The notes under the pieces are model-generated. The model was not told where the DNA came from. It saw nothing but the letters and a program-made list of their open reading frames with translations, and made no database searches. A stretch of 64,000 nucleotides of DNA, from contig NZ_JAUSXI010000001.1 of assembly GCF_030815865.1 (NCBI RefSeq), positions 1,488,001-1,552,000 of the forward strand. The letters run 5' to 3'. The DNA is from Arthrobacter globiformis (lineage in GTDB: Bacteria > Actinomycetota > Actinomycetes > Actinomycetales > Micrococcaceae). Of the stretch, positions 82 to 18,559 are shown one piece after another; the stretch's first letter is position 1, and every line of letters starts with the position of its first letter. The position numbers and the translations under genes are program-made.

Positions 82-267
82 GCGACTTCGTCTCAGCTTT
101 GACGCAGCATTGGATCAAGACCGCCTTCGCGCGTGAAATCGCGTGAAAGGATTCATGCAACTTACGCTTCACGACAATATGGGGGTCTCAACAATGAACA
201 TGCTTGTCGGCTTGAACTGGCAAATGTCACAACAGCTAGAAACACGCATCGAACTCGAGGGACACTG

Positions 268-963
268 ATGACCTTCGACTTCCACTCGGATACTCCGGCC
301 GGCAAGGACCCTGACTCCTTCAGCCCTGCCCTGCGGAAGTTCCACCAGTTGCTGTGGAGCAAGGAGTTGCCCACCGGCGCACACTTCGACCTGACAATGG
401 AACCCGGCGCGTACCTCTTGCACCGGTCCTCGTCCGGTGTCTTCTTCCTCGCCAGCGACGCGATCACGACCAGGCTGCGGAAAAAGGCGTGGAACGTCAT
501 ACGCGGGATCCCGGAAGACGACCTGCCCCAGTACCTCGGCTACACGGCCGGAAGCACGCTCGTGTTCCCCGGCAACAAAATCGGCGGAAAACCGACGATC
601 AATGGTGCACGCGGGCTCCATCCCAGGATCGCCGATCGCTTCGATCTGACTCTTGAGTGCATCCGCCGCCACTATCTTGGCGAGCCGAGCCCCCTCGCAA
701 ATGTCCTGCTCAGATATGCGGAATTCTTCGCCCTGTTCGGGGATTTCGCCGGGTACGTCAAATTCTTCCTACTGGAAGACCTCGTGGAGGATGACGGCCA
801 GACCATCCGGTTCTTCCACCCGTTCGTCGACTTCAGCACGCCGGCCGTCCCGAAGGACCGTGACGAATACCTCGAGTATTTACGGCTCAGCAACGCTTTC
901 ATCTCCGCACGCAATCGAAGGATCGACGAAGAACTTCAAGGGCGGATCGCACGGGAAGCCTGA
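268..963 (+). CDS. Unassigned protein resembling DUF6994 family
   Basis: A 231-residue soluble protein of unknown function. The open frame extends back to 133, but the ATG at 268 is preceded by CGAGGGA at proper spacing and the codons before it do not look like protein. The N-terminus (FDFHSDTPAGKDPDSFSP) and the aromatic C-terminal half (HPFVDF, a conserved-looking HPF core) recall the family I know as DUF6994; this match is from memory. No signal peptide or membrane segment. The gene stands alone, with a 284-base gap before the next start in which I see no structure. Length is plausible for a complete protein. No catalytic motif can be assigned. Confidence 0.75.
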   Translation: MTFDFHSDTPAGKDPDSFSPALRKFHQLLWSKELPTGAHFDLTMEPGAYLLHRSSSGVFFLASDAITTRLRKKAWNVIRGIPEDDLPQYLGYTAGSTLVFPGNKIGGKPTINGARGLHPRIADRFDLTLECIRRHYLGEPSPLANVLLRYAEFFALFGDFAGYVKFFLLEDLVEDDGQTIRFFHPFVDFSTPAVPKDRDEYLEYLRLSNAFISARNRRIDEELQGRIAREA

Positions 964-1247: not shown

Positions 1248-4200
1248 ATGAGTCTGTCCAACCGCGAGTATGTGGGCCGGGCCCTTGAGGCCTTGGCGGT
1301 TGGCCTTGAGCCCTACATCGCATCAGTGCTCTCTGAGGTAGCCCCCGGGGTGGCCTGGACCAAGATCATCCAGCACAAGGACGAGAACGCCGGCCGCGCT
1401 GCGCAATCCTACGCACCCACGGATCTCAGCGTGCAGCTGCGCATCATGACTGAATCCATGGGCTCACTCGGCTACCCCTTCAACCTCCCGCATGACGCAC
1501 GCAGCCACACCTCCGAGCTGCGCCAGGCACGGAACCGCTGGGCCCACAATGAGACCTTCGACGACGCCGATACCTTCCGTGCCCTGGACACCGCAGGTCG
1601 GCTGGCCAAAGCGATCGGGCTGGACCAAACTCAGAGCGAGTTGGTTGCGCTTCTCACCGAGTACCAGAACCGGTCCTCTCCGAACCGGGAACAACCGGAA
1701 GAAGACCAGCAGGCCCTGCCGGCCGCCGTCGTGCAGCCGGACCTGCAAGCGGCAAACTCTGCAGGTGAACCTGTGGCCCATGAACCGGCGGCATCCGCTG
1801 CTCATGTTGTGGTCGAGGTGACCACGGCAGATGCACTGAGCTACGCGATGGCGCACAACGGCTTCCGCTTCGTCAGACAGGTCAGGATCACCAACGTTGG
1901 CGCGGAAATCCGCGGCGCCGTTGTTCATGTCGAGGCGTCCGCGCTGTCGGGCCGGATCTCGGGCGACTTCCAGCAGTACGTGGACCTGGCCGCAGGCCAG
2001 ACCATCACGCTGGATGACCTCAACGTCCCGGTGGAGGCTGCCACCATGTATGACCTGGTTGACCGGCAGCTGGGAAAGGTACTGGTGACCGTGCAATCGG
2101 CGGGCGTCGATGCCGCCGTAAGGGAGCTGGGCCGCGCAGAGGCGGACCTGACGCTCCTGCCCGCCCAGCTGTGGATCGCCGGCCGGGGACTCGTCTCCTA
2201 CGAGTTCCTGGCCGCCTACGTGCAACCGCACCATCCCAGCATTGCCAAGCTCATGTCCGAAGCCGCCGACATCCTCATGCAAACAACCGGCAGCGGCAGC
2301 TTCGACGGGTACCTGGAAGACGGGGACCGGGTTGACCAGATCGTATTCGCCATCGCCCAGGCCATGAGCGCCCGCGACATCCGCTACAGCATGCCACCTG
2401 CCAGCGGGGGACTGGAGGGCCAGCAGGTCCGCACGCCCGCGCAGGTCCTCGACGACCGTCTGGGCACGTGCCTCGACACCACGCTGGTCCTCGCCGCCGC
2501 CCTGGAATCCTGCGGCATCCGGCCTCTGATCTGGCTGGTGGAGGGCCACGCCTTCCTCGGCTACTGGCGGGAAGAAGGCAGCCTCAGCACTGCGGCCTCC
2601 GACGACGTGCCCGAGCTGGTCAGCCTTGTACAGCGCGGCTTCATCGGCCTCGTGGAAACCACGCTCCTCACCGGCAGTCAGCCGATCTCGGCGGCCGCAC
2701 TCCGCAGCAGCCCCCTGAACCGCTATGTGGAAAGCGGCAATGACGAGATCAACGCAGTCACCGACGTCCGGCGCGCCCGCCTCGATGGCATCTACCCGCT
2801 GCCCGCCCGCACCATGTCCGACGCCGGAACCTACACGGTGGTCAACTACGTCCCGGAAACCAAGACTGCGCCGGCGCTGCCGAAGAAAGCAGCCTCAAAC
2901 GGGGGACCGGCCAGGACCACATCCGATGTTCCACCCCGGGTGGTCCAATGGAAGAACGCCCTGCTGGACCTGAGCTTGCGAAACAGGCTCATCAACTTCA
3001 CTGACACCGCCCGGTTCCCACTCGCAGTGCCCACCGCATGGATGGGCGCCTTCGAAGACCTCATCAGCAAGGGCACGTCCGTCAGCCTGCTTCCGTCCAA
3101 CCAGATCAGTGCCATCCACCAGGAGCGCGGCGTCCGCTTCGGCAAAGACCTTCCCCAGGACGAACTCGCGGAGCTGCTCGATTCTAAAAAGTCCGTGTTC
3201 GCCGAGGTCACCGAAGACGGCTACAACGCCAAGATGCGCGGGCTCGCCTACAAGGCGAAGACCCAGCTCGAGGAAACGGGAGCCAACAACCTCTACCTGG
3301 CCATCGGCAGTCTGATGTGGGAGCTGGACGGCCGGGCGCTCAGGTCCCCGCTGGTTCTGGTCCCGGTCAAACTGACCTCTGCAGGGAAAAATGGCCTGTA
3401 CCGGGTCACACTTGATGAGACGGGCCAGTCCACGCCGAACTATTGCCTCCTCGAGAAGCTGGCGCAGTCTCATGACCTGCGCATCCCGGGCCTGGCCGAG
3501 CCGGAGGAAGACGGATCCGGTATCGATCTGGACGCCGCCTTCGCGGCAGTCCGGGCCGCCGTTTCGGCCAAGGGCCTGGCCTTCCGGGTGGAAAACACCG
3601 TGGACCTGTCCATGTTGCAGTTCGCCAAGTTCCGGCTGTGGAAGGACCTTGACGAGAACTGGAAGGAATTCACGGCCAACAGCCTGGTCAACCACCTGGT
3701 CAGCACCCCCACGGAACTCTATTCAGACGGCGTTCCCGTCACGTCCGACGTCGACCTGGACGCCCTTGCGGCGCAGTGTCCCATACCAGCGGACTCGTCG
3801 CAGCTGGAGGCAGTCGCGTCTGCCGTCGCCGGCCAGACGTTTGTCCTGGAAGGCCCTCCGGGCACCGGAAAGTCTCAGACCATCACCAACCTCCTGACCC
3901 GTGCCATCGTTGACGGCAAACGGGTTTTGTTCGTTGCGGAGAAGCGGGCAGCACTCGACGTTGTCCAGAGGCGGCTCGACGACGTCGGGATGGGGCCGTT
4001 CTCCCTTGACCTGCATGACAAGGGCAGCAAGCCGGCGGTAGTCAGGGCACAGATCAAACACGCCTTGGAGCTGAGCCAGTCTGCAAATAAGCAGCAGCTT
4101 GAGACTGCCTCCACCGATCTTGCCGCAGCCCGGCGTGGGCTGGTCCGCTATACCAACAACGTCCATGAAGAGAACGGCGCGCAGCTTTCCCTCTACAGCG

Positions 4201-7200
4201 CGCGGACCAAGGCTCTGACCTATGAACCTGACCACGCGACGGTTCCGCTCAGCCCGGAACTGACAGCGTCCTTGAATGACTCCACCCTGACCTCCATCCG
4301 GCAGGTGTTCCGGGAACTTCCGGAGTTCACCGACCCTGTCCGTCCTGGGCCGGATCATCCGTGGCGGTTTGCCTCCGTTGCCGGCCGTGAGCAGCAGGAG
4401 AAGCAGCTGCTGGCTCTGGGACGGCGCCTCAATGAGGCGCTGAACGCCTTGCGGCCAACCCCCGGGCTTCCGGCGGTTCTGGACGCAGCGCAGACGCCGG
4501 CCGACCTCGAAACTCTCGCTACTCTGCTGCAGGACCGGAACGTCCCGTTGAAGACCCTGGATGTGGTCCGCTCCGGCGACTGGTCGGTGAACGCTGAACA
4601 GCTGGAGAAGCTGGTTACGGCCTTTGCATCCGTCCAGCATCCAGGCCTTGAGCAGGTCGCTCCGGGGGCCATGGACCTTCCCCTGCCGGAAATCCTCGGC
4701 CGTGCGCAGCAGGCCGCGGCCTCCGGATTCTGGGGACGCAAGAAGCGGCTGCTGGCAGTGGCCGCCGAACTGTACCCCGTGCTGGTTTCCGGAGCTGAAG
4801 TCCGCCACAAGGAGCTGGTGCCGCTGCTGGAGAAACTGGTGGCCGTCCAGCAGGAGGTCTCCGGCCTGCGGGCAACGCGGGGCGCTTTGCCTGGGCTTCC
4901 TGCGGATCAGCAATGGAACCCGCTGACGCCGGACGCCCAAGCCGACCTGCGCCACCGCATTTCCTGGCTGCGCTGGGCCGCGCAGGCGGTGCACCCATCT
5001 CCGGAGCCCGCCGTCGTGAGCTTCCAGAGCGAGCTCCGTACGTTCCTGAGGGACGCTCCGGACGTCCACCAGAACGTTGTCGGCTGGCTGCGGGAACTTT
5101 CCCAGGCCTGGGAAGAATTCCTGCAGATCCAGGGTGTGGTTACTGCTGACCTGCGAACGTGGACCGGTGGGCGGGGCTTCCTGGCCCGCTGGTGGGAAAC
5201 GTCCGTGGCGCGGCGGCTGGATACGGCGGGGTCAGTGCCGCTGACGCGGTGGCTCGAGCTGGTCCGTCATGTCGAGCCGCTGCGTGCTGCGGGGCTGGTG
5301 GACGCCCGTAGTGCCATCCTCGACGGCGAGCTGGAGGCCGATAACGCAGCGGCAGCCTTTGAACGCGGTTTGGCTGAAGGGTCGCTGGCCGAACGGCAAA
5401 TTGCTACCGGGTTGAGCGACTTTGATGCGATGGTGCACGAGCGCACCATCGAGCGGTTCACCAGCCGAGCGGAAACGGTGCGCGAGCTGCTCAAAAGCAA
5501 CCTTGCCGCCGGGGTCCTGCGCTCCCGGACGGTCTCGTCGTCGTCGACCTCCGGTCGCATGGGCGAGCTGCAACGGCAACTGAACAGGCAGCGGGGTGGG
5601 ATGTCCGTCCGCAAGCTGATGGAACACTACTCGGACCTCATCACGGGGATCATGCCCTGCACACTGGTCAGCCCGGATTCGGTGGCCCGGTTCTTCCCTG
5701 CCAAGGCCGGTCTGTTCGACATCGTGGTGTTCGATGAAGCCTCACAGATCCGGGTCGCCGACGCGGTGGGTGCTATGGGCCGCGGCGCGTCAGTGGTGGT
5801 CGTGGGTGACAGCAAGCAGATGCCGCCGACGTCGTTCGCGGAGATTTCCTCCGACGCCGGCAGCGACGGGGACGCCGAGATCTCCGTGGTGGAGGATATG
5901 GAGTCGATCCTTTCCGAATGCGTGGAAGCGCGGGTGCCGCGGCAGTGGCTGTCCTGGCACTACCGTAGCCAGGACGAATCGCTGATCGCGTTCAGCAACC
6001 AGCAGTACTACGACAGCAAGCTTTCCTCGTTCCCGGGCCCGTCCCACGGCGCTGCGAATGCCGGTGTCCGCGGACACGGCGTGAACTTTGTCCGGGTCGA
6101 CGGCCAGTTCCACCGTTCGGGACCATCCAAGGTCCTTCGTACCAATCCTGAGGAGGCTGCGGCGGTGGTGGCCGAGATCCGCCGCAGGTTTGATGCTGAT
6201 CCCGCGGGGACTCCCTCCATCGGTGTGGTCACGTTCAACCTGCAGCAGCGCGCACTGATCGAAGGTCTGCTGCGCGACACGGATGAGCCGCGCATTGTCG
6301 CCGCTCTTGACGAGGATTCAGAAGGCCTGTTCGTCAAAAACCTTGAGAATGTGCAGGGCGATGAGCGGGACGTCATCCTGTTCTCCACCGGGTTCAGCAA
6401 GAATGACAAGGGATATCTGCCGCTGAACTTTGGTCCCCTGAACCGGTCCGGTGGTGAACGGCGCCTGAACGTTGCCGTCACCCGTGCACGCCGGCAGGTT
6501 GTTGTCTTCTCCAGCTTCAACCCCGCCGACCTGCGTTCCGAGGAAACCAGCTCCGTCGGCATCAAGCACCTGCGGTCTTACCTTGATCTGGCAGAGCAGG
6601 GCACCGCTGCGCTGCCTTATGACGGGCGCCGCGCTCCTAACATTGACCTGCACCGGGAAGAGATAGCCGACGCGCTGCGGGATCGCGGCTTTGTTGTTTC
6701 GTCGAATGTGGGATTGTCCGATTTCAAGGTAGACCTGAGCGTTGCGTCGGCCGAAGACTCTTCCCGCCAGCTGATGGCCATTTTGCTGGACGGTCCGGCT
6801 TGGGCCGCACGCCGGACCGCGGGCGACCGGGACGGGCTGCCCCGGGATGTCCTCACGCGGATGATGCGGTGGCCTTCAGTAGAGCGGGTATGGTTGCCGG
6901 CGTGGCTTGCGGACAGTGAAGCCGTACTCGATCGGCTGGAACTGTCCTTGCGGGAAGCTGCCGATGACGTTTCGGGAGAAGCTGTCGCTAAGCCAGCTCC
7001 ACGCGACACTAGCGTTCCCGGATCCGCTGGCGATGGGGGTCACGCAGAACCGCATAGGAGTGTCACTGACCCGCTCGGGACCCTGCCGCTGTTTGAGGAG
7101 ATTCGGAAGCCTGCGGGACCGCCGTCGCCTGTGCCTGTTGTCTCCGAAGTTGCTACCTACCAGCCGTGGACAGTGAAAGCGTTCGGAACCACAGACGTTT

Positions 7201-7712
7201 TGGACAACCTGCACTCACGACGTTCGATCGCTGCCGTCCGAGATGCTATTGGTGTTGTTGTCGCGGCAGAGGGGCCAATACATCAGGACCGATTGGCAAG
7301 GCTGGTCTGTGCTGCATTTGGACTCAACAAGGTCAACGGTTCCCGTGCAAACTCCGTGCTTCGTCTGGTCGATCCGTCGGCTCACGTTATCGACGACGAT
7401 GGGTTCGTTTGGGATGCCAGGGTGGATAGGCGCACTTGGAGCGTCTTCCGGTCTAATGACGCTGACATCGTTCGCAAACCGGAGCACATCAGCGTAGTGG
7501 AGCTACGGAATGCCATGATGGATATCGTGAGTGCGACAGGCGGCATCGGAGTGAGCGAGCTGCATCGGGAAACGATTCAGACGTTCGGCGGGAAGCGCCG
7601 GACTGCTGGCATCACGGCCCGCCTGAATGAGGGGCTGCAGCACGGAGTGGACACCGGACATCTTGAACTGCGCGGCGACACTGTGCGGCTGGCCACATCG
7701 TTTCAACCCTAG
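1248..7712 (+). CDS. HEPN-transglutaminase-DUF4011 SF1 helicase-nuclease-DUF3320 protein (predicted defence)
   Basis: A 2154-residue multidomain protein. The ATG at 1248 follows GGGGGA at 1237-1242; the TTG just before it is less likely. Visible parts in order: a Swt1-type HEPN domain (about 1-125) with the RNase-like motif RNRWAH (R95, H100); a beta-rich segment (about 185-300); a transglutaminase-like segment with GTCLD (C408) and EGHAFLGYW (H434); DUF4011 beginning near 565 (WKNALLDLSLRNRLINF); an SF1 helicase with Walker A GPPGTGKS (869-876), Walker B-like DEAS (1496-1499), GDSKQMPP, and a C-terminal motor half with VTRARRQVVVFS; a PD-(D/E)XK/Vsr-like region near 1797-1900 (DFKVDLSV, LLDG); and a DUF3320-like tail near 1990-2075. 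All key residues look intact. Family knowledge links DUF4011-helicase-endonuclease-DUF3320 proteins to antiphage defence; the name Hhe used for such single-gene systems is from memory. It is monocistronic. Activity here is inferred. Confidence 0.88.
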   Translation: MSLSNREYVGRALEALAVGLEPYIASVLSEVAPGVAWTKIIQHKDENAGRAAQSYAPTDLSVQLRIMTESMGSLGYPFNLPHDARSHTSELRQARNRWAHNETFDDADTFRALDTAGRLAKAIGLDQTQSELVALLTEYQNRSSPNREQPEEDQQALPAAVVQPDLQAANSAGEPVAHEPAASAAHVVVEVTTADALSYAMAHNGFRFVRQVRITNVGAEIRGAVVHVEASALSGRISGDFQQYVDLAAGQTITLDDLNVPVEAATMYDLVDRQLGKVLVTVQSAGVDAAVRELGRAEADLTLLPAQLWIAGRGLVSYEFLAAYVQPHHPSIAKLMSEAADILMQTTGSGSFDGYLEDGDRVDQIVFAIAQAMSARDIRYSMPPASGGLEGQQVRTPAQVLDDRLGTCLDTTLVLAAALESCGIRPLIWLVEGHAFLGYWREEGSLSTAASDDVPELVSLVQRGFIGLVETTLLTGSQPISAAALRSSPLNRYVESGNDEINAVTDVRRARLDGIYPLPARTMSDAGTYTVVNYVPETKTAPALPKKAASNGGPARTTSDVPPRVVQWKNALLDLSLRNRLINFTDTARFPLAVPTAWMGAFEDLISKGTSVSLLPSNQISAIHQERGVRFGKDLPQDELAELLDSKKSVFAEVTEDGYNAKMRGLAYKAKTQLEETGANNLYLAIGSLMWELDGRALRSPLVLVPVKLTSAGKNGLYRVTLDETGQSTPNYCLLEKLAQSHDLRIPGLAEPEEDGSGIDLDAAFAAVRAAVSAKGLAFRVENTVDLSMLQFAKFRLWKDLDENWKEFTANSLVNHLVSTPTELYSDGVPVTSDVDLDALAAQCPIPADSSQLEAVASAVAGQTFVLEGPPGTGKSQTITNLLTRAIVDGKRVLFVAEKRAALDVVQRRLDDVGMGPFSLDLHDKGSKPAVVRAQIKHALELSQSANKQQLETASTDLAAARRGLVRYTNNVHEENGAQLSLYSARTKALTYEPDHATVPLSPELTASLNDSTLTSIRQVFRELPEFTDPVRPGPDHPWRFASVAGREQQEKQLLALGRRLNEALNALRPTPGLPAVLDAAQTPADLETLATLLQDRNVPLKTLDVVRSGDWSVNAEQLEKLVTAFASVQHPGLEQVAPGAMDLPLPEILGRAQQAAASGFWGRKKRLLAVAAELYPVLVSGAEVRHKELVPLLEKLVAVQQEVSGLRATRGALPGLPADQQWNPLTPDAQADLRHRISWLRWAAQAVHPSPEPAVVSFQSELRTFLRDAPDVHQNVVGWLRELSQAWEEFLQIQGVVTADLRTWTGGRGFLARWWETSVARRLDTAGSVPLTRWLELVRHVEPLRAAGLVDARSAILDGELEADNAAAAFERGLAEGSLAERQIATGLSDFDAMVHERTIERFTSRAETVRELLKSNLAAGVLRSRTVSSSSTSGRMGELQRQLNRQRGGMSVRKLMEHYSDLITGIMPCTLVSPDSVARFFPAKAGLFDIVVFDEASQIRVADAVGAMGRGASVVVVGDSKQMPPTSFAEISSDAGSDGDAEISVVEDMESILSECVEARVPRQWLSWHYRSQDESLIAFSNQQYYDSKLSSFPGPSHGAANAGVRGHGVNFVRVDGQFHRSGPSKVLRTNPEEAAAVVAEIRRRFDADPAGTPSIGVVTFNLQQRALIEGLLRDTDEPRIVAALDEDSEGLFVKNLENVQGDERDVILFSTGFSKNDKGYLPLNFGPLNRSGGERRLNVAVTRARRQVVVFSSFNPADLRSEETSSVGIKHLRSYLDLAEQGTAALPYDGRRAPNIDLHREEIADALRDRGFVVSSNVGLSDFKVDLSVASAEDSSRQLMAILLDGPAWAARRTAGDRDGLPRDVLTRMMRWPSVERVWLPAWLADSEAVLDRLELSLREAADDVSGEAVAKPAPRDTSVPGSAGDGGHAEPHRSVTDPLGTLPLFEEIRKPAGPPSPVPVVSEVATYQPWTVKAFGTTDVLDNLHSRRSIAAVRDAIGVVVAAEGPIHQDRLARLVCAAFGLNKVNGSRANSVLRLVDPSAHVIDDDGFVWDARVDRRTWSVFRSNDADIVRKPEHISVVELRNAMMDIVSATGGIGVSELHRETIQTFGGKRRTAGITARLNEGLQHGVDTGHLELRGDTVRLATSFQP

Positions 7713-7748
7713 ATGAGGCTCTGACTTCTTTCCTTCCGCACTACGCCT

Positions 7749-7913
7749 CGCAGTAACGGCGGCGACTGGCCCGACCGCAAAGCATACAAGCTCGTCATTG
7801 GCCAGCCCGGCGAATTACTGGACGAGGCACGGGCGGAGGAAGTCGTGGAGTGGCTCGTGATTTCGGAGCACACGATCGCGCGGGTCTTGTCGAAGCCTAT
7901 AAAACACGGGTAA
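7749..7913 (+). pseudogene. Possible 54-codon coding remnant, unidentified
   Basis: One frame reads RSNGGDWPDRKAYKLVI through EEVVEWLVISEHTIARV to a TAA at 7911-7913, with protein-like composition but no start codon or ribosome site. It begins shortly after the large helicase gene. It looks like the tail of a gene whose front has been lost. I recognise no family; it could be chance. Confidence 0.3.
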
Positions 7914-7972
7914 TTCGCGGGATCGGCGGGATCAACGCCGTCTTGGTGACCTGGCGGGAATCCAGCCCTCGG

Positions 7973-8200
7973 CTATTTCTTCCGCATCTTGTTTTTTACT
8001 TCCGCTGCCTTGCGGTAGGCCTCTTTGGCTTCGGGGCTTGTTGCTGCACGATACATCTTCTTGCCGTCCTCAAGCAGTTTCCCTGCCTTGGCCTGCGTCT
8101 CCGGGTCTTTCGCGAGAGCGTAAAGCTTTGCGGCGGCATCTTTGGCCTTCTGCCCGCCGTCCTTCATAACAGCAACGGCTTTGTCTGCTTTTCCGGCCAT
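7973..8200 (-). CDS. Lys/Ala-rich small protein, unknown function
   Basis: A 75-residue protein, about one quarter lysine, with many short KDxxAKLYAL/KAGKLLEDGKK-like helical stretches and no cysteine, signal peptide or membrane segment. ATG at 8200 is preceded by GGGAG at good spacing. The composition suggests an amphipathic helical, basic protein, perhaps binding nucleic acid or membrane, but no family is recognised. It lies 81 bases downstream of the next minus-strand gene and could be co-transcribed with it. It converges on the helicase gene, so it is not part of that transcript. A long frame on the other strand (7850-8260) is its shadow. Confidence 0.65.
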   Translation of the reverse strand: MAGKADKAVAVMKDGGQKAKDAAAKLYALAKDPETQAKAGKLLEDGKKMYRAATSPEAKEAYRKAAEVKNKMRKK

Positions 8201-8281
8201 GGTCTGCTCCCTATCGTGGGTGGTTTGTCTAGCGGGGCGAGCAAGCGCCAGGTCCAGTGATCGCTTTGCCCCAGCAGGTAA

Positions 8282-9604
8282 TCAGGCAGCGACTGCAGGG
8301 AAAACTACAAGCGATCCGTCGCTGTTTCGTTCGATCTCGATTGCAACGTCATCCTGGTGGCCCCTGAGATGCAGACCGTCGCCCAGAGCACGCAATCGGT
8401 AGGCGGCTTGTAGCAGTTGGTCCACTTCGCCGGCCGTGAACGCAGGAAGGCGGAAACCGCCGTCGCGCTTCACCTCGAGCGCAGAAAGTCGAAGGAGAAC
8501 CTGATTGATACCTGACTCCAACTCGTCGGTGCTGCGCCCGTCGTCGTGAAGCGCCCCGATGAAATTCTTGAAGGAATTGCCGGTGTCCTGCTGGGCGTGC
8601 TCGACTGCCTGAAGCACGAGCACCCGGCGTTTAAGAGCAATGGCCAGCCGTGCAATCTCTAGGTGCGCCCTGAACGTGCCGCCGTCCTCTGTGATGCCGG
8701 GGAACGCCTTTTTCAGATCGCTTACTTCGACTGCGCCGCCGGACAGCGCATCCAGCGCCGCTTCCCACTTCTTCAGCCGCCGCCGGGCGGCAGCGATAGC
8801 GGTATTGATGCCGTGCACGGATGAATCCAGACCGAGTGAAAAGCCGATCCGGCCCTGGTCCAGAAGGATCGAGGTAGCCTTGTCGATCGCTTCACGGCAA
8901 CCGTCAAGCTCGTTGCGTTCCTTATCGAGACTGCCCTCGTGCAACTGCTCCAAAAGGTCAGTGATCCGCTCAATTGCTTCCTGACGCTGGTGCTCGGCAT
9001 ACGCGCTGACGCTGACGGCTACGGCCATCAGCACCAGTGGCGCCGCCACCGTCAAAGCTCCAGCGCTGGCAACCGCAACGCCTGCCGTAGCTGCCGAACC
9101 GGTTGCAGCACCCGCAGTGCCTGCAGCCGCGGCTTTACCAGCAACAGGCACAAAAGTGGCAGCACCGACGATGCCGGAGGAATCAACTAAGGCACCATGG
9201 ATACCTCCCGCAACTCCTTTGGCCGCCATGGGCCGAACAAGTCCTTTGCCGACCTGCGCGGCAACCTTGGCGGGGACCACCATCCGGTAAAGAACCTCCC
9301 CCGCATCAGCAACATTCAGCTGCGGGGGAGCGGATGTCGCTGTCTTGCCTACGAGCTCCGCTAACTGCTTTGCGAGCGGGCTCGCTGCGTCAAGCGGAAT
9401 CCCGCCCTTGCGCTCTCGAGTCGGGGGCATGGAATGCATTTCGAGTGTTGCTATGGGGGAATCCGCAAGTGCTGCCAGTACCGTTCTCAGTTCTGCGAGA
9501 CGAGCCGGCGTGAGGCCGTCGGTGCCCAGCACGTCAGACACGCTTACAGCCTCTGTAGCTAGTGTCCATACCGGCACGAGTGCCTTGTTGTCAGTAGTAG
9601 TCAC
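8282..9604 (-). CDS. Unknown protein with Gly/Ala-rich membrane region
   Basis: A 440-residue protein if read from GTG at 9604, which has GAGGGG six bases upstream; an upstream TTG at 9688 has only a weak site. The first 110 residues are soluble. Then comes a long Gly/Ala/Val stretch (about 115-200: GVAGGIHGAL, AAAAGTAGAATGSAATAG, then LTVAAPLVLMAVAVSVSAY), like a glycine-zipper membrane hairpin. A charged helical region follows (EAIERITDLLEQLHEG, RRRLKKWEAALDAL) and a beta-like end (VAIEIERNSDGSLVVF). The layout of soluble head, Gly/Ala membrane insert and helical tail recalls pore-forming or membrane-acting effectors, but that is inference. The small Lys-rich gene follows it. I cannot name a family. 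Confidence 0.7.
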   Translation of the reverse strand: MTTTDNKALVPVWTLATEAVSVSDVLGTDGLTPARLAELRTVLAALADSPIATLEMHSMPPTRERKGGIPLDAASPLAKQLAELVGKTATSAPPQLNVADAGEVLYRMVVPAKVAAQVGKGLVRPMAAKGVAGGIHGALVDSSGIVGAATFVPVAGKAAAAGTAGAATGSAATAGVAVASAGALTVAAPLVLMAVAVSVSAYAEHQRQEAIERITDLLEQLHEGSLDKERNELDGCREAIDKATSILLDQGRIGFSLGLDSSVHGINTAIAAARRRLKKWEAALDALSGGAVEVSDLKKAFPGITEDGGTFRAHLEIARLAIALKRRVLVLQAVEHAQQDTGNSFKNFIGALHDDGRSTDELESGINQVLLRLSALEVKRDGGFRLPAFTAGEVDQLLQAAYRLRALGDGLHLRGHQDDVAIEIERNSDGSLVVFPAVAA

Positions 9605-9857
9605 TCTTGGCCCCTCATGAAAGTGAATTCCGCCTTGGGCGGTGGTAGCGACGCTGCTTGGGGACCCGAGAACGTGGTCCTTGCTCAATTGTCACCGGTC
9701 GTTATCGTCCCACATTGAAATCAGTTTTTATGAAAGTGTCGCCACCGTAACCGTCGGGCGAGTCCCGCTACACTGATCCTGAATCAGCCAGACAGCAATT
9801 TCTGGAAGGCAACCAACAGGAACGGAACCCAAGCCGTTTCGAGGCAAAAGGGGACCA

Positions 9858-10484
9858 GTGTCCGAAGCGAAGTCATTCAAGCCCGTCGCGTTCATTGCAT
9901 CTGCGGTGGCGGTGCTACTGGCTGCACTGCTTGTAGCAACCATGCTTGGGGTCGGCCCGTTTTCGAGCAAGAGCGAGCGGAGCCAAACCGTTCTGCTGAA
10001 GTCCGTCAAGGACGTGAGCCAGTATCACGCCGCCGTCGGCAATTTTGAACAGGTAGTGGACACTGGAGATGACGACGCGGCTATGCCCGATTTTATCGCG
10101 GGACGACGGACGCTGTTTGTCGCGGTTGGCACCGTCAATGCGCACGTCGACCTCGCAGGCTTGGCCGAGAACGATCTGAGGTTGTCTCCGGACGGCAAGA
10201 CCGTGGAGCTGCGGCTTCCCGAGCCGCAGCTCGACAAGCCCAACATCGACCATGACCGGTCCCGTGTGTACAGCCAGGATCGTGGCTTGGCAGACCGGAT
10301 CGTAGATGCATTCGAGGCACCGCAGCAGGCAGAGCTCTATAAGCTCGCCGAAAGCAACATGGCTGCCGCCGCGGAGGAATCCGAACTACGTGAGCGTGCT
10401 GCCGAGAATACCAAGGCCATGCTAACTGGCCTGTTCGGCTCGCTCGGGTACAAGGTGACCTTCCGCGACGCCGAGTCCCGTTAG
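9858..10484 (+). CDS. DUF4230-like membrane-anchored protein
   Basis: A 208-residue protein starting at GTG 9858 behind AAAAGGGGA. Residues about 9-32 form one N-terminal transmembrane anchor (VAFIASAVAVLLAALLVATML); the rest is predicted outside the membrane. The core VKDVSQYHAAVGNFEQVVDTGDD and later ELRLPEPQLDKPNID match my memory of DUF4230, a family of unknown function. It is divergent from the 8282-9604 gene across 253 bases that hold both promoters; TACACT near 9768 is a candidate -10 box. No partner gene follows in the same direction. Confidence 0.75.
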   Translation: MSEAKSFKPVAFIASAVAVLLAALLVATMLGVGPFSSKSERSQTVLLKSVKDVSQYHAAVGNFEQVVDTGDDDAAMPDFIAGRRTLFVAVGTVNAHVDLAGLAENDLRLSPDGKTVELRLPEPQLDKPNIDHDRSRVYSQDRGLADRIVDAFEAPQQAELYKLAESNMAAAAEESELRERAAENTKAMLTGLFGSLGYKVTFRDAESR

Positions 10485-10541
10485 ACCATGTCAATCAAGT
10501 GGTTGTGACCCAGGCCCTCACAGCGACGAATTCGACAGACT

Positions 10542-10559
10542 GGTTTCGACAGGCTTAAC
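10542..10559 (+). repeat. Single copy of the dispersed TTTCGACAGGCTNAAC repeat
   Basis: GGTTTCGACAGGCTTAAC matches the core of the repeat that forms an array at 58.3-58.7 kb and single copies at 54.1 and 61.5 kb. It lies between convergent gene ends. Confidence 0.75.
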
Positions 10560-10568
10560 GACAGAGGA

Positions 10569-10722
10569 CTACAGCTCCAGCCGGAACACCCACAGCAGCA
10601 CGTCCTCGCCCGGCACATACCAGTCACGCTCGGGCGCGCGACGGAAGCCCAGAGGCGTCGAGCGTGATGCGCCGGACCTCCGGAAAGTCAGGCGAGGCCG
10701 CCCGCCGGAACGCGAAGCTCAC
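10569..10722 (-). pseudogene. Frameshifted small gene overlapping end of rbsK
   Basis: A GTG at 10722 overlaps the rbsK stop as GTGA and opens VSFAFRRAASPDFPEVRRI; the frame ends early. Moving one base continues with STPLGFRRAPERDWYVP and ends VLLWVFRLEL at a TAG (10571-10569). Both halves look like protein and together give about 50 residues, so this looks like a broken last gene or the tail of one in the rbsK transcript. I do not recognise the family. Confidence 0.4.
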
Positions 10723-11588
10723 CGTGCGTCCGCGGCAGAAGCCGTCCGCTCGACGTAACGGCCCAGCTGTTCCAGGGCTGGCTGGGAGGACGGATCACCC
10801 ACAGCGTCCGCGCCCACCGCATTAGCCACCGCAAGCGCCCGCTCGTAAGAAAGCCCGTCCCGTAGTGCCAGAACCAACGCAGCGCAGAAAGCATCACCAG
10901 CCCCGATCGTGTTCGCTACAACGGTTGCCACGGCTGGCGCCTCAGCCACCTTCCGGCCGTGCTCGAACATCGCCGAGCCGTCCTTCCCGTACGTCACCGC
11001 AACCAGCTTGGCCGTAGCCAGCGCCGGGATCAGCTCGTACTCCGTCTCGTTGACGATCACCAGGTCGCACCGCTCCAGCAGCTCGGCCGGCAGGTCCATC
11101 GCGGGGGCCGCGTTCAGGACGAAGAACCCGGAGGACTTTCGAGCTGCCTCCAGCACCACAGGCAGGCCCACCTCGAGCTGGCACAGCACCGCCTCGTCCG
11201 GAGCGAACGAAACGCGCTCCAACGAGAACTGCGAGTTAGCCCCCGGGCACACCACGATCTGGTTTTCGCCGTCGCGGTCCACCACGATCAGCGCGGTACC
11301 GGTCGCGTCACCGTCGAGCACCGCCACGTCGTCAGTGTCCACGCCGGCGGCGGAAAGCGACTCCAGCATCAGGCGTCCCTGGGCGTCGTCGCCCACCGCG
11401 CCAATCATCCGGGCGCTCCTGCCAAGGCGCGCGGCGGCCACGGCCTGGTTGGCCCCCTTGCCGCCGGGCTGCTGTTGCAGGACACCGCCGCCGATGGTCT
11501 CGCCGGCGGTGGGGAGCCGGTCCGTGGTGGCGATGATGTCCAGGTTGATGCTGCCGACGACGGTGACGGCAGGAAGTCGAGTGCTCAT
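10719..11588 (-). CDS. rbsK: Ribokinase (PfkB family)
   Basis: A 289-residue PfkB-family sugar kinase, the usual ribokinase length. It phosphorylates D-ribose to ribose-5-phosphate in the cytoplasm. The N-terminal VVGSINLDII, the glycine motif PGGKGANQA (41-49), the substrate/metal motif NETEYE (180-185) and the C-terminal ANTIGAGDAF with catalytic D232 are all present. In most ribokinases the motif is DTxGAGD; here Asn replaces the first Asp, which is tolerated in some members. ATG 11588 follows AGGACTT. It is divergent from an MFS carrier and a nucleoside hydrolase, which fits salvage of ribose from ribonucleosides. The shared 139-base promoter region carries an operator-like palindrome. 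Confidence 0.92.
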   Translation of the reverse strand: MSTRLPAVTVVGSINLDIIATTDRLPTAGETIGGGVLQQQPGGKGANQAVAAARLGRSARMIGAVGDDAQGRLMLESLSAAGVDTDDVAVLDGDATGTALIVVDRDGENQIVVCPGANSQFSLERVSFAPDEAVLCQLEVGLPVVLEAARKSSGFFVLNAAPAMDLPAELLERCDLVIVNETEYELIPALATAKLVAVTYGKDGSAMFEHGRKVAEAPAVATVVANTIGAGDAFCAALVLALRDGLSYERALAVANAVGADAVGDPSSQPALEQLGRYVERTASAADAR

Positions 11589-11659
11589 GGAGAAGTCCTA
11601 TCAGGTCGAGCCAGGGCGGCTGAATTAGGAAACAGTGTACGCCACGGTTGTACTTGTTC

Positions 11660-11681
11660 GTTATACATGGTTGTATAACAA
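11660..11681. promoter_or_regulatory. GntR-type operator in rbsK/MFS divergent promoter
   Basis: GTTATAC (11660-11666) and GTATAAC (11673-11679) are a 7-bp inverted repeat with a 6-base gap. Within it TTGTATAACAA (11671-11681) fits the GntR-like pattern TNGTNNNACNA. TTGTNNAACAA recurs at 17391-17401 in front of the GntR gene. Position between divergent genes suggests control of both. Confidence 0.55.
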
Positions 11682-11727
11682 CTCACATCCCACGGCAGAA
11701 CCAGCCTGCAGAACAAAGGAGTTTGAT

Positions 11728-13161
11728 GTGAACACACCAGCCAGCGGCACCGCCTCGCCGCCAGCCGCCGTCGACAATGAAGACGTGCACCAGACCAAAC
11801 TCAGCGGCCGCCCCGCTGCCCTGCTCATTTCCACCCTGCTGCTCGGCGTGCTGTCCTTCCAGCTCAATGCCAGCATGGTCACCCCGGCGCTGCCGCAGAT
11901 CGCCGCCAGCTTCGGCCTGGCCCCCGACGCGGCCGCCCCCGTGCAGTCCATGTTCTTCCTCGCCGGCGCCATCGCCGGTCCGGTGATCGGCAGGTGGAGC
12001 GACTTCGTCGGCCGCCGCGCCGCGCTCCTGCTGGTGCTGGCCATCATGGGCGCCGGCACCGTCCTCTGCATCGCCGCGCCCACCCTGCCGCTGCTCATCG
12101 CCGGGCGCTTCCTGCAGGGCGTGTCCAGTGCCGTCTTCGCTCTCTCCTACATCGTGCTCAGCGAGAACCTGCAGCCGCGCGTCTTCGGCACCTCCGTGGG
12201 CATCATCGCCGCGATCAACGGCGGCATCGGGGGAGTGGACGGCTACGTCGGCGGCCTGATGTCCGAGACGCTCGGCTTCCGGTCCATCTTCGCCGTCGTG
12301 CTGGTGCTCACCGCCGTCGCCGCCGGCTGCATCCTCAAGACCGTCCCGAAGGGGCGGCCGCACGGCGTGCGCGGGGCCATGGACTGGTGGGGCGCCGGCT
12401 CGCTCTCAGTGTTCCTGGTGTTCATCACCTACTTCGTCTCCGGCGGTTCGGCCGCCGGCTGGACCGCCCCCGGCACCCTGGCCCTGCTGGCCGGAACCGT
12501 CGTGTCCTTCGCCGCCTTCTGGATGATCGAGAAACGGCGCAGCCACCCGCTCATCGCCGTCCACCACCTGCGCTCCCGCCAGGTGTGGCCCGTCATCGCC
12601 ACCACCGTCCTCACCCTCGCCGGCATCTTCGCCGTCATGAACTTCACCGTGGTGCTGCTCAGCCAGGATCACGACGCCGGGTTCGGGCTCAGTGCCTCCC
12701 TCTCCGCACTTCTGTTCCTCACCCCGGCCGCGCTCATCGGCGTCTTCGCCGCCCCCTTGGCCGGGTGGCTCGCGGGCCGCCGCGGCTGGATCAAGACCCT
12801 CCGCACCGGCACCGCGCTGAGCCTCGTCTGTGCCATCGCTGCCGCGGCGTTGTCCGGCAACCAGGTGGCGGTGATGATCGCCGTCGCGGCCCTCGGCATC
12901 TTCTACAACGGCCTCTTCCTCACTGCCATCAACGGACTCTCCGTCCTGCTCTCGCCCAAGGAAGCCCCGGCGTCCCTGCCCGGCATCAACGGTGCCTCCT
13001 TCGGGATCGGGGCGAGCCTCGGCGTCGTGATTGTTGCGCCGTTCGCCGCGCAGGCGACGCCGGCCGGCTACGCCACCGCCCTCTGGATCTCGGTGGCCAT
13101 CACCGCGGCCGCGTTCATCGTCAGCCTCTTCGTCGCCGCCCCCAAGGGCGAGACCCTCTAA
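11728..13161 (+). CDS. MFS transporter, probable nucleoside carrier
   Basis: A 477-residue major facilitator protein with 12-14 hydrophobic segments. GTG 11728 is chosen because AAAGGAG (11715-11721) lies just before it; the longer frame from 11635 runs through the operator. The MFS loop motif is visible as GRWSDFVGRRAALL and the sequence resembles the DHA drug:proton antiporter branch. Its neighbours, ribokinase (divergent) and nucleoside hydrolase (31 bases downstream, same strand), suggest uptake of ribonucleosides rather than drug export; that substrate is inference. Probably repressed by the GntR regulator acting at 11660-11681. Confidence 0.87.
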   Translation: MNTPASGTASPPAAVDNEDVHQTKLSGRPAALLISTLLLGVLSFQLNASMVTPALPQIAASFGLAPDAAAPVQSMFFLAGAIAGPVIGRWSDFVGRRAALLLVLAIMGAGTVLCIAAPTLPLLIAGRFLQGVSSAVFALSYIVLSENLQPRVFGTSVGIIAAINGGIGGVDGYVGGLMSETLGFRSIFAVVLVLTAVAAGCILKTVPKGRPHGVRGAMDWWGAGSLSVFLVFITYFVSGGSAAGWTAPGTLALLAGTVVSFAAFWMIEKRRSHPLIAVHHLRSRQVWPVIATTVLTLAGIFAVMNFTVVLLSQDHDAGFGLSASLSALLFLTPAALIGVFAAPLAGWLAGRRGWIKTLRTGTALSLVCAIAAAALSGNQVAVMIAVAALGIFYNGLFLTAINGLSVLLSPKEAPASLPGINGASFGIGASLGVVIVAPFAAQATPAGYATALWISVAITAAAFIVSLFVAAPKGETL

Positions 13162-13192
13162 CCCTTCCTCAACTGAAAGAAGAACCACCTCC

Positions 13193-14194
13193 ATGACCAG
13201 CCACCCGTTCTACCTCGACTGCGACACCGGCATCGACGACGCCCTCGCCCTGGCCTACCTGCTCGCCTCCCCGCAGGCGGACGTGCGGGGGATCGGCGCC
13301 GTCAGCGGCAACGTGAGTGCCGCCGTCGGCGCACGCAACACCCTGGACCTGCTCGAGCTCGCCGGGCACGCGCACATCCCCGTTGCTCTGGGTTCGCATG
13401 ACCCGCTTGTTGGTTCTTTTGGCGGGGGAGCGCCCTGGGTGCACGGCTCCAACGGCATCGGCGAGGTGTCGCTTTCTGAGTCCTCTGTTTCCCTTGCGCC
13501 GGAGACCGCGGCGGAGATGCTGGTGCGGCTAGCCCACGAGCACCCCGGCACACTGCGGGTCCTGGCCATCGGCCCGCTCACCAACATCGCCGAGGCGCTG
13601 CGGCTGGAGCCCGAGCTGCCGCGGCTGGTGGAGGAGATCACGATCATGGGCGGCGCGGCCCTGGCCCCGGGGAACCTCACGCCCGTGGCGGAGGCGAACA
13701 TCGCCAACGACCCCGAGGCCGCCGCCCTGGTGCTGTCGGCTGGCTGGGACGTGACCCTGGTGCCGCTGGACGTGACCATGACCAACGTGCTGGAGGAGAA
13801 CCACCGGCAGGAGTTGCTGGCCTCGTCCGGTCCCGTGCCGCGGGCGCTGGGGGAGATGCTGGGATACTACTTCCGGTTCTACGAGGGCATCTTCGGCCGG
13901 GCCTGCTCCGCCATGCACGATCCTCTCGCCGCGGCGCTCGCGGTGGGGGCCGTTACCGCTGCGGTAGCGCCGGTGGTGCACGTGGACGTCGACACCACGT
14001 CCGGGCCCAGCCGCGGGCAGACGGTCTGCGACCTGCGCGGACTGTACATGGACTACCCGGAGCAGCCCGGCGCCCGCTGCAGGGTGGTGCTGTCGCTGGA
14101 GGGTGAGTTTGCGCCGCACCTGGTGGAGACGCTGCTGGCGTTCAATCCGGAAGGTTCGACGGCGGGAGTCACCTTGGGTGCGGCGGTCGCCTGA
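13193..14194 (+). CDS. Inosine/uridine-preferring nucleoside hydrolase
   Basis: A 333-residue IU nucleoside hydrolase. It cleaves the N-glycosidic bond of ribonucleosides to ribose and a free base, in the cytoplasm. The signature DxDxGxDD is present as D9, D11, D15, D16 (DCDTGIDDA) and supplies the calcium site. ITIMGGA and a C-terminal MHDPLAAAL with the conserved His-Asp pair are also seen. Length is typical. It is the second gene of the MFS operon, 31 bases after the stop; the start is ATG 13193 with a weak GAAAGAAGAA site. With ribokinase it forms a short salvage route from ribonucleosides to ribose-5-phosphate. Confidence 0.93.
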   Translation: MTSHPFYLDCDTGIDDALALAYLLASPQADVRGIGAVSGNVSAAVGARNTLDLLELAGHAHIPVALGSHDPLVGSFGGGAPWVHGSNGIGEVSLSESSVSLAPETAAEMLVRLAHEHPGTLRVLAIGPLTNIAEALRLEPELPRLVEEITIMGGAALAPGNLTPVAEANIANDPEAAALVLSAGWDVTLVPLDVTMTNVLEENHRQELLASSGPVPRALGEMLGYYFRFYEGIFGRACSAMHDPLAAALAVGAVTAAVAPVVHVDVDTTSGPSRGQTVCDLRGLYMDYPEQPGARCRVVLSLEGEFAPHLVETLLAFNPEGSTAGVTLGAAVA

Positions 14195-14215
14195 GCGTTT
14201 CATCCGGCGGGCCGG

Positions 14216-14480
14216 TCAGGACCGCAGCCACTCCATCATCGGGAGGTGCCCGGCGCGGTCCACGATGAGGCACTGACTACGTAGACAGGCCGGTCCGCGC
14301 GCCTGACGACCGTGGCGGAACAGGGCCGATTCCCGGAGTCACCAGCCAGCCACGAGTTCGACGCCGAGGCCGGGGCGACGAACGGGAGGCGGGCTGCGCC
14401 GCCCTCAGGAGGCGCAGCGCCGTGGTGCCCCGGACGTCGGAGACCAACCGGCCGGCTGAGCGGCGGCGAGAACGTGACAA
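14216..14480 (-). pseudogene. Degraded GntR/UTRA regulator gene
   Basis: Read on the minus strand, this stretch follows the intact GntR gene at 16553-17335. The last codons give DRAGHLPMMEWLRS against DRAGHLSVMQSLQS, and further DNA blocks match (GATTCCCGGAGTCACCAGCC at 14329 on the plus strand against the intact copy near 16907). Large internal deletions and frameshifts leave no open frame. Its place directly after the nucleoside hydrolase suggests it was once the local regulator of this operon. Confidence 0.65.
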
Positions 14481-14492
14481 GACGACCCCAGG

Positions 14493-14867
14493 TCAGTGCT
14501 GCGTGCCAAGGACCGAATGGGCGATCAGCATATCCAGCCGCCGCACGTCCGCCTTTTTGCCCACCTTGATCTTGATGTGGCCCGCCCGCGTCCATAGCTC
14601 AAGCTCAGCGTCCACGTCGAATGTTCCGGCATTCTCCGAGGACCACATGTTGATTGCAGAATAGGGCAGAGAATACACCTCCACCTTCCTGCCAGTGAGT
14701 CCCTGGGCGTCGCGAACGATCAATCGCTTGGTCGTAAAAATGGCGCTATCGCGAAATGTCTTATACGCGGCCACCGGCTGCTCACCAGGGACCATTAGTT
14801 CCACAACGTCCTTCGGGATCGGACATTCGGCGACGAACATCCATGTGGTTACTGCTGCTGCCTCCAA
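14493..14867 (-). CDS. Bacterial PH-domain protein
   Basis: A 124-residue protein matching the bacterial pleckstrin-homology domain (bPH_1, PF08000 type): FTTKRLIVRDAQGLTGRKVEVYSLPYSAI, then DAELELWTRAGHIKIKV. The family's exact role is unknown; the fold is a ring-forming beta barrel. The start is chosen as TTG 14867 because AAAAGGAG lies 7 bases before it; the first ATG, nine codons later, has no site. No signal or membrane segment. It is monocistronic, between a regulator pseudogene and a region of repeats. Confidence 0.82.
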   Translation of the reverse strand: MEAAAVTTWMFVAECPIPKDVVELMVPGEQPVAAYKTFRDSAIFTTKRLIVRDAQGLTGRKVEVYSLPYSAINMWSSENAGTFDVDAELELWTRAGHIKIKVGKKADVRRLDMLIAHSVLGTQH

Positions 14868-15065
14868 GGCTGCTCCTTTTGATTGGTACGGGTCCAGCCA
14901 TCAGTGTCTCAGGACGTCTGAGTCTCTCCGCGCTTTCGCCGTTGGCGTGTGTCGTGGCGGAGGCGACCGGATGGAGATCAGCATCGAGGAGCTGGGCCGC
15001 CAGGAGCAGAAGCTGAGCAGTTACCCAAAAAATGACGGCAGCCTGAGTGCCGCCCGCTACTTCCG

Positions 15066-15140
15066 GGCCTCCGCTTTGGTGAGGGCCGCGGGCAAGGTGG
15101 CACCGCCGTCGTCCGTTTTTCACGCGCGGCGGCGCCGTAG
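15066..15140 (-). pseudogene. Short GntR/UTRA fragment
   Basis: On the minus strand this reads DDGGATLPAALTKAEAR, against DDGGTTLLTALNKAAGR in the intact GntR protein at 16553-17335, and the DNA matches over about 60 bases. No start or stop belongs to it. Confidence 0.5.
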
Positions 15141-15152
15141 CACTGGCCCAAC

Positions 15153-15223
15153 CCCCGAGTTTTTGTACAGATAATCCGCCTTTGGCCCCATTCAAGCCGC
15201 GAGAGCTGGACAAAAACTCGGGG
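15153..15223. repeat. Inverted repeat, copy A
   Basis: Arms 15153-15170 and 15206-15223 pair over 18 bases with one mismatch (CCCCGAGTTTTTGTACAG and CTGGACAAAAACTCGGGG). The same core, AGTTTTTGTCCAGATAAT, forms a perfect inverted repeat at 47550-47610. Probably a mobile palindrome or a repeated terminator. Confidence 0.6.
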
Positions 15224-15277
15224 TAATCTTCCGGCAGACGCTAGGTGGCCGGGCCTGATTGAAGCAAGATTCTCGGT

Positions 15278-16549: not shown

Positions 16550-16552
16550 GGT

Positions 16553-17335
16553 TCAGGACTGGAGCGACTGCATCACGGAGAGGTGTCCGGCGCGGTCGGC
16601 GATGAGGCACTTAGCCAGATAGAAGGGCCGGTTCGCATGCCGGACGTACTGGGTTAGGACCAGGACCGGGTCCGAGGCGCGCAGGTCCAGCAGCTTGGCA
16701 CGGCTCGGGCCCACCTGGCTCAGGCCAATCTGGCACTCGCCAGGTCCAAGTCCCCGGCCAGCCGCTTTGTTGAGGGCCGTGAGCAAGGTGGTGCCGCCGT
16801 CGTCCTTGATTTCCAGCGGCGCGGCGGTACCGCCGGCGAAGCTGACCGGCTGGGCGGAGATGTTTTCCTGCAGGTGCGCGATGGGTTCGCCGTCGCGTAG
16901 CAGGACGGATTCCCAGAGCCAGACGTCGCTGCCGGGTTCGACGCCCACGCCGGGGGCGACGAATTCGGAGGCCGGCTGCCGTTCCACCTGGATGCGTTTG
17001 ATCTGGATCTGGTGTCCGGGGCCGCCGAGGACCTCCTCGAAGGGGCGGATGCGTTCGATGCCGATGCGGGGGAGGGTGTCTGAGACGAAGCGGCCGACGC
17101 CTCGCCGGGCACGGATGAGGCCGTCCTCCTCGAGCAGCATGAGGGCCTCACGCACTACGGTGCGGCTGACCTTCATGTCGGTCCCGAGTTCGGTCTCGGT
17201 GGGGAGCATGGAGCCGGGCTGCAGCAGGTTGTTGCGGATGGCTTCGGCGATCCGTGAGTAGACGGCAACCCGGAGCGGTGAGCCGGGCTGGGCCTCCACC
17301 GGCTGGGACAGGAACCGGACGGCGTCCTCGTGCAC
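16553..17335 (-). CDS. GntR-family regulator with UTRA domain (HutC type)
   Basis: A 260-residue repressor from GTG 17335, which has GAGG six bases before it; a TTG at 17401 would place the start inside a promoter-type operator and is disfavoured. The winged helix covers about 20-90 (VYSRIAEAIRNNLLQPG, then VVREALMLLEEDGLIRARRGVG), and the UTRA ligand-binding domain follows to the end (GPGECQIGLSQVGPSRAKLL). TTGTCCAACAA just upstream matches TTGTATAACAA between rbsK and the MFS gene, so autoregulation and control of the nucleoside operon are likely (inference). Pieces of related genes occur at 14.2, 15.1 and 20.3 kb. Confidence 0.88.
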   Translation of the reverse strand: MHEDAVRFLSQPVEAQPGSPLRVAVYSRIAEAIRNNLLQPGSMLPTETELGTDMKVSRTVVREALMLLEEDGLIRARRGVGRFVSDTLPRIGIERIRPFEEVLGGPGHQIQIKRIQVERQPASEFVAPGVGVEPGSDVWLWESVLLRDGEPIAHLQENISAQPVSFAGGTAAPLEIKDDGGTTLLTALNKAAGRGLGPGECQIGLSQVGPSRAKLLDLRASDPVLVLTQYVRHANRPFYLAKCLIADRAGHLSVMQSLQS

Positions 17336-17390
17336 GTTATGCCTCGCTTGCGTTTGTTCTGGGGAATCCAGCCTAGCAAGTGGTACGCGC

Positions 17391-18467: not shown

Positions 18468-18559
18468 CGTGATCATCCTCCTGTTCGACTCGTTCTGCTA
18501 CTCCGAGTATGAAAGTGAAGCGCGTGCCATACATGGGTGCCGGCACCTAACTGCGGGGT

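Follow-up and report, generated by a model that had tools for sequence, protein, structure and literature searches.

The fusion proteins of the MTES_1575 type were described by Anantharaman et al. in 2013 (PMC3710099), whose passages on this type list a Swt1-type HEPN domain, a transglutaminase-like domain, a superfamily 1 (SF1) helicase, a Vsr-type restriction endonuclease (REase) domain and two C-terminal winged helix-turn-helix (wHTH) domains, all without an associated methylase. The same passages treat DUF3320 as a winged-helix domain and propose a layered defence that includes a proteolytic line. Transglutaminase-like peptidases also figure in other conflict systems in passages of PMC8195603 and PMC7159879, and a core DUF4011 gene flanks a defence hotspot of Pseudomonas in the relevant part of PMC10250203. 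Our literature search found no paper testing the 2013 proposal for MTES_1575-type proteins, none attributable to the defence family Hhe and none on the anti-phage protein ProA, most subscription journals lying outside the search; the main text of a study on the antiviral arsenal of Actinobacteria (PMC10482375) does not mention Hhe, PDC, HEPN or Microbacterium. Here, we analysed a 64,000-nucleotide stretch of the Arthrobacter globiformis genome (hereafter the window), which encodes a giant protein of this type near its start.

The gene is an intact open reading frame (ORF) of 2154 residues on the forward strand, beginning with ATG at 1248 and ending with a stop codon at 7710-7712; an in-frame TTG at 1245 would add one residue if used as the start. 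Pfam recognised, in order, HEPN_Swt1, DUF4011, AAA_11, AAA_12, the MTES_1575 REase and DUF3320. The NCBIfam model for ProA (NF058533) scored 1726.8 bits against a curated cut-off of 1500, with model positions 1-1903 covered entirely. This match spans residues 198-2117 only, and because the model begins at residue 198, the HEPN domain and the linker behind it are an add-on to ProA. The PADLOC candidate PDC-S37, whose PDC label we take to mark a purely computational candidate, reached 934.5 bits over residues 561-2147. Protein Data Bank (PDB) sequence relatives of the whole protein were helicases only (SMUBP-2, 1.7e-13). The ratio of nonsynonymous to synonymous substitution rates (dN/dS), here and below computed against two same-genus copies, was ~0.17 across the gene, which is under purifying selection. 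The window protein is an ordinary, well-formed member of an already described family, and the giant ORF with HEPN, transglutaminase-like, helicase and endonuclease-like parts put forward in an earlier note on this DNA is real, with R95, H100, C408, H434 and K875 at the positions given there. The note's assignment to defence agrees with the ProA score above cut-off, the PDC-S37 match and the presence of defence genes nearby. Its description of the protein as Hhe-like holds as far as relatedness goes; membership of Hhe itself was ruled out by a score of 612.4 bits for NF042953, far below the cut-off of 2000; the PADLOC model PDLC02194 gave 413.7 bits.

We read the gene as encoding a single-gene anti-phage defence protein, the HEPN-fused (MTES_1575-type) form of the ProA family, and give this reading, together with the mechanism proposed below, a probability of roughly 0.5. 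Family membership, the domains, the HEPN motif, a candidate Cys-His-Glu triad, intact helicase motifs and an altered REase active site are all visible in the sequence. In the proposed mechanism, the SF1 helicase and the C-terminal REase-like/winged-helix module would engage foreign or damaged nucleic acid, and an ATP-driven change would then release the HEPN RNase, the likely main output here, which would cleave RNA and halt the infected cell. The transglutaminase-like domain may be a thiol peptidase that acts in cis or in trans to activate, free or restrain HEPN, or may provide a second output, and the REase domain would now mostly bind DNA rather than cut it.

The search for relatives covered overlapping draws of genomes from the family (197), the order (396), the phylum (396) and two other families (251 and 299), to which species genomes (the best 80 of at least 293 relatives) and viral contigs (6 loci) were added. 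From 202 loci, 21 that repeated the window, were incomplete or scored below 390 were dropped, as were L003, which had no matching ORF, and five duplicates, and 176 proteins including that of the window were kept. Swt1-type HEPN, DUF4011 and DUF3320, all named in the earlier note, were found by Pfam in the window protein, where the HEPN domain carries the R-x4-6-H motif (RNRWAH) of the MTES_1575 type with both the Arg and the His present and evolves at a dN/dS of 0.18-0.21. Its identification is strongly supported by the profile match and the motif. A family-derived HEPN profile (E < 1e-5) detected the domain in 49 of the 176 proteins, 30 of which keep both R95 and H100. AAA_11 and AAA_12 scored above their cut-offs, and the helicase is complete, as the earlier note had it, with K875 in place and its motifs intact. 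The Walker A lysine is kept in 172/176 proteins (three gaps, one Q), and 169/176 keep both K875 and E1497, the remaining seven having a gap or Q; the second helicase half showed a dN/dS of 0.02-0.03.

The transglutaminase-like domain was seen through relatives and profiles. Pfam found none in the window protein, even when residues 1-560 were scanned with the threshold relaxed to E 1. Among the N-terminal parts of 49 relatives, window included, DUF553 (Transglutaminase-like) was matched in 24 and Transglut_core in 16 when E values as high as 1 were admitted, with best values of 8.5e-4 and 8.8e-4, respectively. A profile of residues 300-540 aligned by local-mode hhalign with Transglut_core sequences of this genome and its relatives (20 loci, of which one was dropped) at E 1.5e-4 (probability 52%, score 35.9), placing C408 opposite the conserved Cys of the templates' G-x-C, while 18 other, partly overlapping family stretches scored at most 20.5 against the same five templates. 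Four smaller template sets used alone gave weaker values (E 0.0021, 0.0077, 0.047 and 0.074), the last two with scores of 17.9 and 18.7, inside the control range. PDB matches to the N-terminal profile included a putative protease (E 0.16) and a transglutaminase-like protein (E 0.33), ranked on either side of an unrelated enzyme, and were set aside. The assignment is supported by the profiles, with modest scores, and C408, H434 and E470 would supply the Cys, His and acid of a candidate triad; with a dN/dS of 0.08, this part is the most constrained of those preceding DUF4011. For the Cys/His pair of the earlier note, the positions are right and a profile match exists, but no Pfam domain backs it in the window protein itself. 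The note's view that such a core is rarely discussed as an effector did not hold for this protein: the MTES_1575 passages of PMC3710099 had already presented this fusion in 2013 and proposed a proteolytic line of defence for it.

A helicase-based tree of 173 of the 176 proteins (L098, L175 and L184 were too short), built by a fast method and with several long branches, split into a 51-row clade without any HEPN and a 122-row clade, here the ProA clade, holding the window protein and 47 HEPN-bearing rows. Clade counts use this split; an earlier list, chosen partly by residue 1846, agrees for the REase columns. The triad (C-H-E/D) is intact in 30/30 proteins with an intact HEPN motif versus 8/19 with a broken one (Fisher p 2.6e-6 for 49 proteins, kinship ignored). 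Among HEPN-bearing rows there were three independent pairs when HEPN was the lead trait and four or five when the transglutaminase part was (sign test p 0.25-0.5); scoring HEPN-less rows as not intact gave 8 and 10 pairs (p 0.06-0.25). No independent pair ran opposite to co-loss. As a proven correlation, the coupling was rejected: it is not significant once kinship is counted, the independent losses being too few.

If the RNase could be licensed or released only by the protease, both active sites should decay together, including in tandem pairs of one active and one doubly dead copy. Such pairs occur at two closely related loci, L077 of Paeniglutamicibacter antarcticus (approximately 8931-22405) and L243 of genome G074 (1512-14933), where copy 1 keeps the HEPN and transglutaminase sites, copy 2 keeps neither, and both copies retain Walker A and DEASQ. 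The two copies of L243 are 38% identical to each other; the second copies of the two loci are 93% identical, so their decay was probably a single event. A third tandem pair, in Actinomyces dentalis (L105, approximately 4578-15638), has broken HEPN and transglutaminase sites in both copies. A bolder version of our reading, in which the ancestral DNase has become a non-cutting sensor in the ProA clade, the HEPN RNase and the transglutaminase-like thiol protease of the HEPN-fused forms make up one interdependent switch with the protease licensing or releasing the RNase, and the C-terminal module is a recombining specificity cassette, seems to us rather unlikely. One alternative would reverse the roles, making the transglutaminase-like domain the family's main effector, a protease acting on host or phage proteins, with HEPN as an accessory. 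The triad does outlast HEPN, 65 of the 114 ProA-clade rows with letters at these positions keeping it without an intact HEPN, and the low dN/dS noted above fits this view; however, 20 of the same 114 rows have a broken triad, the alignment is empty at these positions in several relatives from outside the clade, and we regard this alternative as quite improbable.

The REase domain scored 48.9 bits against a PF18741 cut-off of 38.2, and hhalign matched it to Vsr proteins of related genomes at E 1.4e-6 to 1.3e-5 (scores 39-44, versus at most 19.2 for 11 control stretches). The motif that reads IECDG..YH in many relatives is LLDG..WA in the window protein, and the Vsr alignment puts A1853 opposite the His of the Vsr F-W-H. 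An active Vsr-type nuclease has a catalytic Asp and the His of G-x-x-[WY]-H, which we take to be catalytic in Vsr; the window protein keeps the former as D1829 and has Ala in place of the latter. Vsr sequences themselves carry F where relatives carry the motif Glu, so the loss of that Glu alone proves nothing, and the loss of the His is the stronger sign of an apparently altered REase. In the 51-row clade many rows read I-E-C-D-G-x-x-Y-H; the Glu is present in 32 of the 50 rows with a letter, 24 of which also have the His, and is lost in the other 18. Among the 118 ProA-clade rows with a letter, none has Glu at position 1846, and the position of the Vsr motif His holds Ala in 79 and His in three.

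A key element of the active site is apparently gone from the domain, and a third catalytic output is doubtful. The endonuclease-like region of the earlier note is present as a domain with an altered active-site motif, and its claim of three catalytic outputs is weakened by the missing counterparts of the Vsr His and the relatives' Glu. The 2013 proposal would make the REase the primary DNase and the HEPN RNase and transglutaminase protease back-up suicide outputs. It comes with the same architecture (in the MTES_1575 passages of PMC3710099), the domain, with D1829 and D1848 still in place, is conserved at a dN/dS of ~0.12 (dS ~1.2, near saturation), and the absent Glu is shared with Vsr. Against this stand the scarcity of His in the ProA clade and an MTES_1575 score well below the 115.5 bits of a same-genus relative with an intact motif, L240, and we consider this layered scheme somewhat unlikely.

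Beyond the REase domain, Pfam saw a single DUF3320 stretch in the window protein (two C-terminal wHTH in the MTES_1575 type). Four-fold-site identity to both sister genomes was ~60-86% per 90-residue step up to residue 1800, fell to 51-57% at 1801-1890 and to 17-33% beyond, versus 78-91% between the sisters in the C-terminal region. This abrupt drop marks an exchange of the C-terminal module in one lineage. As a general habit such swapping was rejected: among 47 close pairs (three without a value) the signal was strong only for the window with L004 and with L005, and perhaps for L044-L088. In the PDB, the C-terminal profile matched two vacuolar sorting protein chains (3.4e-4 and 0.0012) over the low-complexity linker, which we attribute to chance; an endonuclease-like protein was also matched, at E 1.2. 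Coordinates are collected in the table.

Table. Features of the giant protein and its upstream neighbour (window coordinates; res, residues)
Feature	Position	Strand	Basis
HEPN-fused ProA / MTES_1575-type giant defence protein, 2154 aa (putative)	1248..7712	+	ORF and NCBIfam NF058533
HEPN_Swt1 domain, res 11-124	1278..1619	+	Pfam PF18731, E 4.6e-24
HEPN RNase motif R95-N-R-W-A-H100	1530..1547	+	Sequence
Variable linker from HEPN to conserved ProA body, res 141-185	1668..1802	+	Fast-evolving; NF058533 begins at res 198
Transglutaminase-like (papain-fold thiol) domain, approx. res 340-480	2265..2687	+	hhalign E 1.5e-4; Pfam matches in relatives (E up to 1)
C408, candidate nucleophile	2469..2471	+	Aligns with Transglut_core Cys
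H434 of GHAF	2547..2549	+	Invariant in 10-sequence alignment
E470, likely third triad residue	2655..2657	+	Invariant in 10-sequence alignment
DUF4011, res 572-738	2961..3461	+	Pfam PF13195, E 4e-31
SF1 helicase first half, Walker A EGPPGTGKS (K875)	3792..4136	+	Pfam AAA_11, res 849-963
SF1 helicase motif II (FDEASQ) and second half	5727..6512	+	Pfam AAA_12, res 1553-1755, E 7.7e-20
Vsr-like MTES_1575 REase, res 1804-1898; E-to-L at 1846 and H-to-A at 1853 versus relatives; D1829, D1848 kept	6657..6941	+	Pfam PF18741, 48.9 bits
C-terminal module, ~res 1820-2154, abrupt drop in four-fold-site identity versus sister genomes	6705..7709	+	Four-fold-site comparison
DUF3320, res 1986-2030	7203..7337	+	Pfam PF11784, E 1.4e-8
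DUF6994 protein, directly upstream neighbour	262..960	+	Pfam E 4e-85

A housekeeping role in nucleic-acid repair or RNA processing, rather than dedicated defence, was weighed against the distribution and surroundings of the gene. A divergent relative of ~1400 residues exists in the same genome, and the ProA model hits 196 of the 197 family genomes when E values as high as 0.001 are allowed. However, the full-length form is patchy, exceeding the cut-off in 15/197 genomes of the family, 18/396 of the order and 7/396 of the phylum (13/251 and 17/299 in the two other families), and the gene adjoins defence genes with flanks that vary between sister genomes; a housekeeping enzyme is, in our judgement, very improbable. 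The divergent relative (L244, G000:C1:3999000-4007000, 1657-5856 on the reverse strand) has 1399 residues; no GPPGTGK motif was found in it and its helicase matches are only weak. Open frames of ~1250-1550 residues recur among the family-search matches listed. On plasmids, 315 records match at E up to 1e-50, and among the 40 of these that were listed, the match starts at residue 165 or beyond, i.e., without HEPN; of 50,697 phage records, a single one passes a threshold of E 1e-20.

Upstream of the window (L203, G000:C1:1474001-1490000), PADLOC found a ZacA-like protein (349 bits), a DrmD-like SNF2 helicase (672 bits), type III restriction-modification (R-M) mod and res genes and a PDC-S48 exonuclease-BRCT protein, and the ProA gene lies next to this predicted defence island. 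The DUF6994 gene adjoins ProA in three same-genus genomes (own, G009 and G039; neighbour comparison and blastn). No methylase gene is present among the neighbours examined within 4 kb in the window, and the type III mod gene, next to its cognate res, has its end ~8 kb upstream. Downstream lie a PfkB kinase and a major facilitator superfamily (MFS) transporter, a pair common to one sister genome, which marks the locus as a variable one beside a metabolic pair.

Several observations weigh against our reading. The HEPN domain is absent from the ORF taken in 75 of the 122 ProA-clade rows, and HEPN is therefore not the core output of the family; in one of these rows, L020, it lies in a separate ORF. 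Because the ProA model excludes HEPN, the experimental basis of the ProA name may concern a HEPN-less protein. Among the 67 HEPN-less ProA-clade rows with letters, 58 keep the triad and nine have lost it, so the triad has a use without HEPN, which argues against obligate coupling. D1829 is kept in 114/118 and D1848 in 118/118 ProA-clade rows, and since both stay conserved, residual nuclease activity is possible. Lastly, the DrmD-like and type III R-M neighbours score below the curated NCBIfam cut-offs of the models they match.

Two further candidates were dropped. A HEPN encoded separately beside HEPN-less members was sought among ORFs of at least 60 codons in those loci, which yielded only split or tandem copies (L020, L105 and L011). 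A conserved operon partner was sought by clustering neighbours within 4 kb, the largest clusters spanning 6/176 loci, which agrees with a single-gene system; loci from the genome search carry 1.5-kb flanks only, so that more distant partners could escape notice there. Same-strand genes of one cluster adjoin ProA upstream in L007 and L008 and downstream in L166 and L167, and an example of this cluster presumably resembles an Mrr-type REase. A DUF4379 protein was identified by Pfam in L203. Between ProA and the PfkB-MFS pair, a 468-residue protein (8282-9688, reverse strand) has no family above cut-off and a weak DUF4407 match, in a gap that differs in the sister genome. Farther along the window lie a 738-residue protein with a C-terminal Pput_2613-like deaminase domain (40020-42236, reverse strand; PF14427, E 8.2e-24) that looks like a polymorphic toxin, and an insertion sequence-type transposase with an integrase core (43546-44535, forward strand).

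The window protein offers a concrete test of the 2013 proposal, in which the transglutaminase-like domain would be a functional component of a HEPN toxin switch. That ProA-clade members have probably lost their REase active site is a caution against annotating them as DNases. The tandem pairs and swapped C-terminus are natural material for telling the sensing part from the acting part.

Compared with known systems, the window protein matches the whole of ProA and differs by its extra HEPN and linker. PDC-S37 reaches neither the HEPN nor the transglutaminase part. Hhe shares an alignable body of DUF4011, SF1 helicase and REase, at scores far below its cut-off. L240, an 1852-residue protein of the same genus, has DUF4011, helicase, MTES_1575 and DUF3320 as in the window protein; unlike it, L240 has no HEPN by Pfam and no aligned transglutaminase part, and its REase motif, IECDGAAYH, is intact. 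Relative to the MTES_1575 type as set out in PMC3710099, no architectural difference was found. The passages on that type do not mention an altered REase motif or HEPN/transglutaminase co-decay, and what the present analysis adds is the altered REase across the sampled ProA clade, the one-way association between HEPN and transglutaminase integrity, and the swapped C-terminus.

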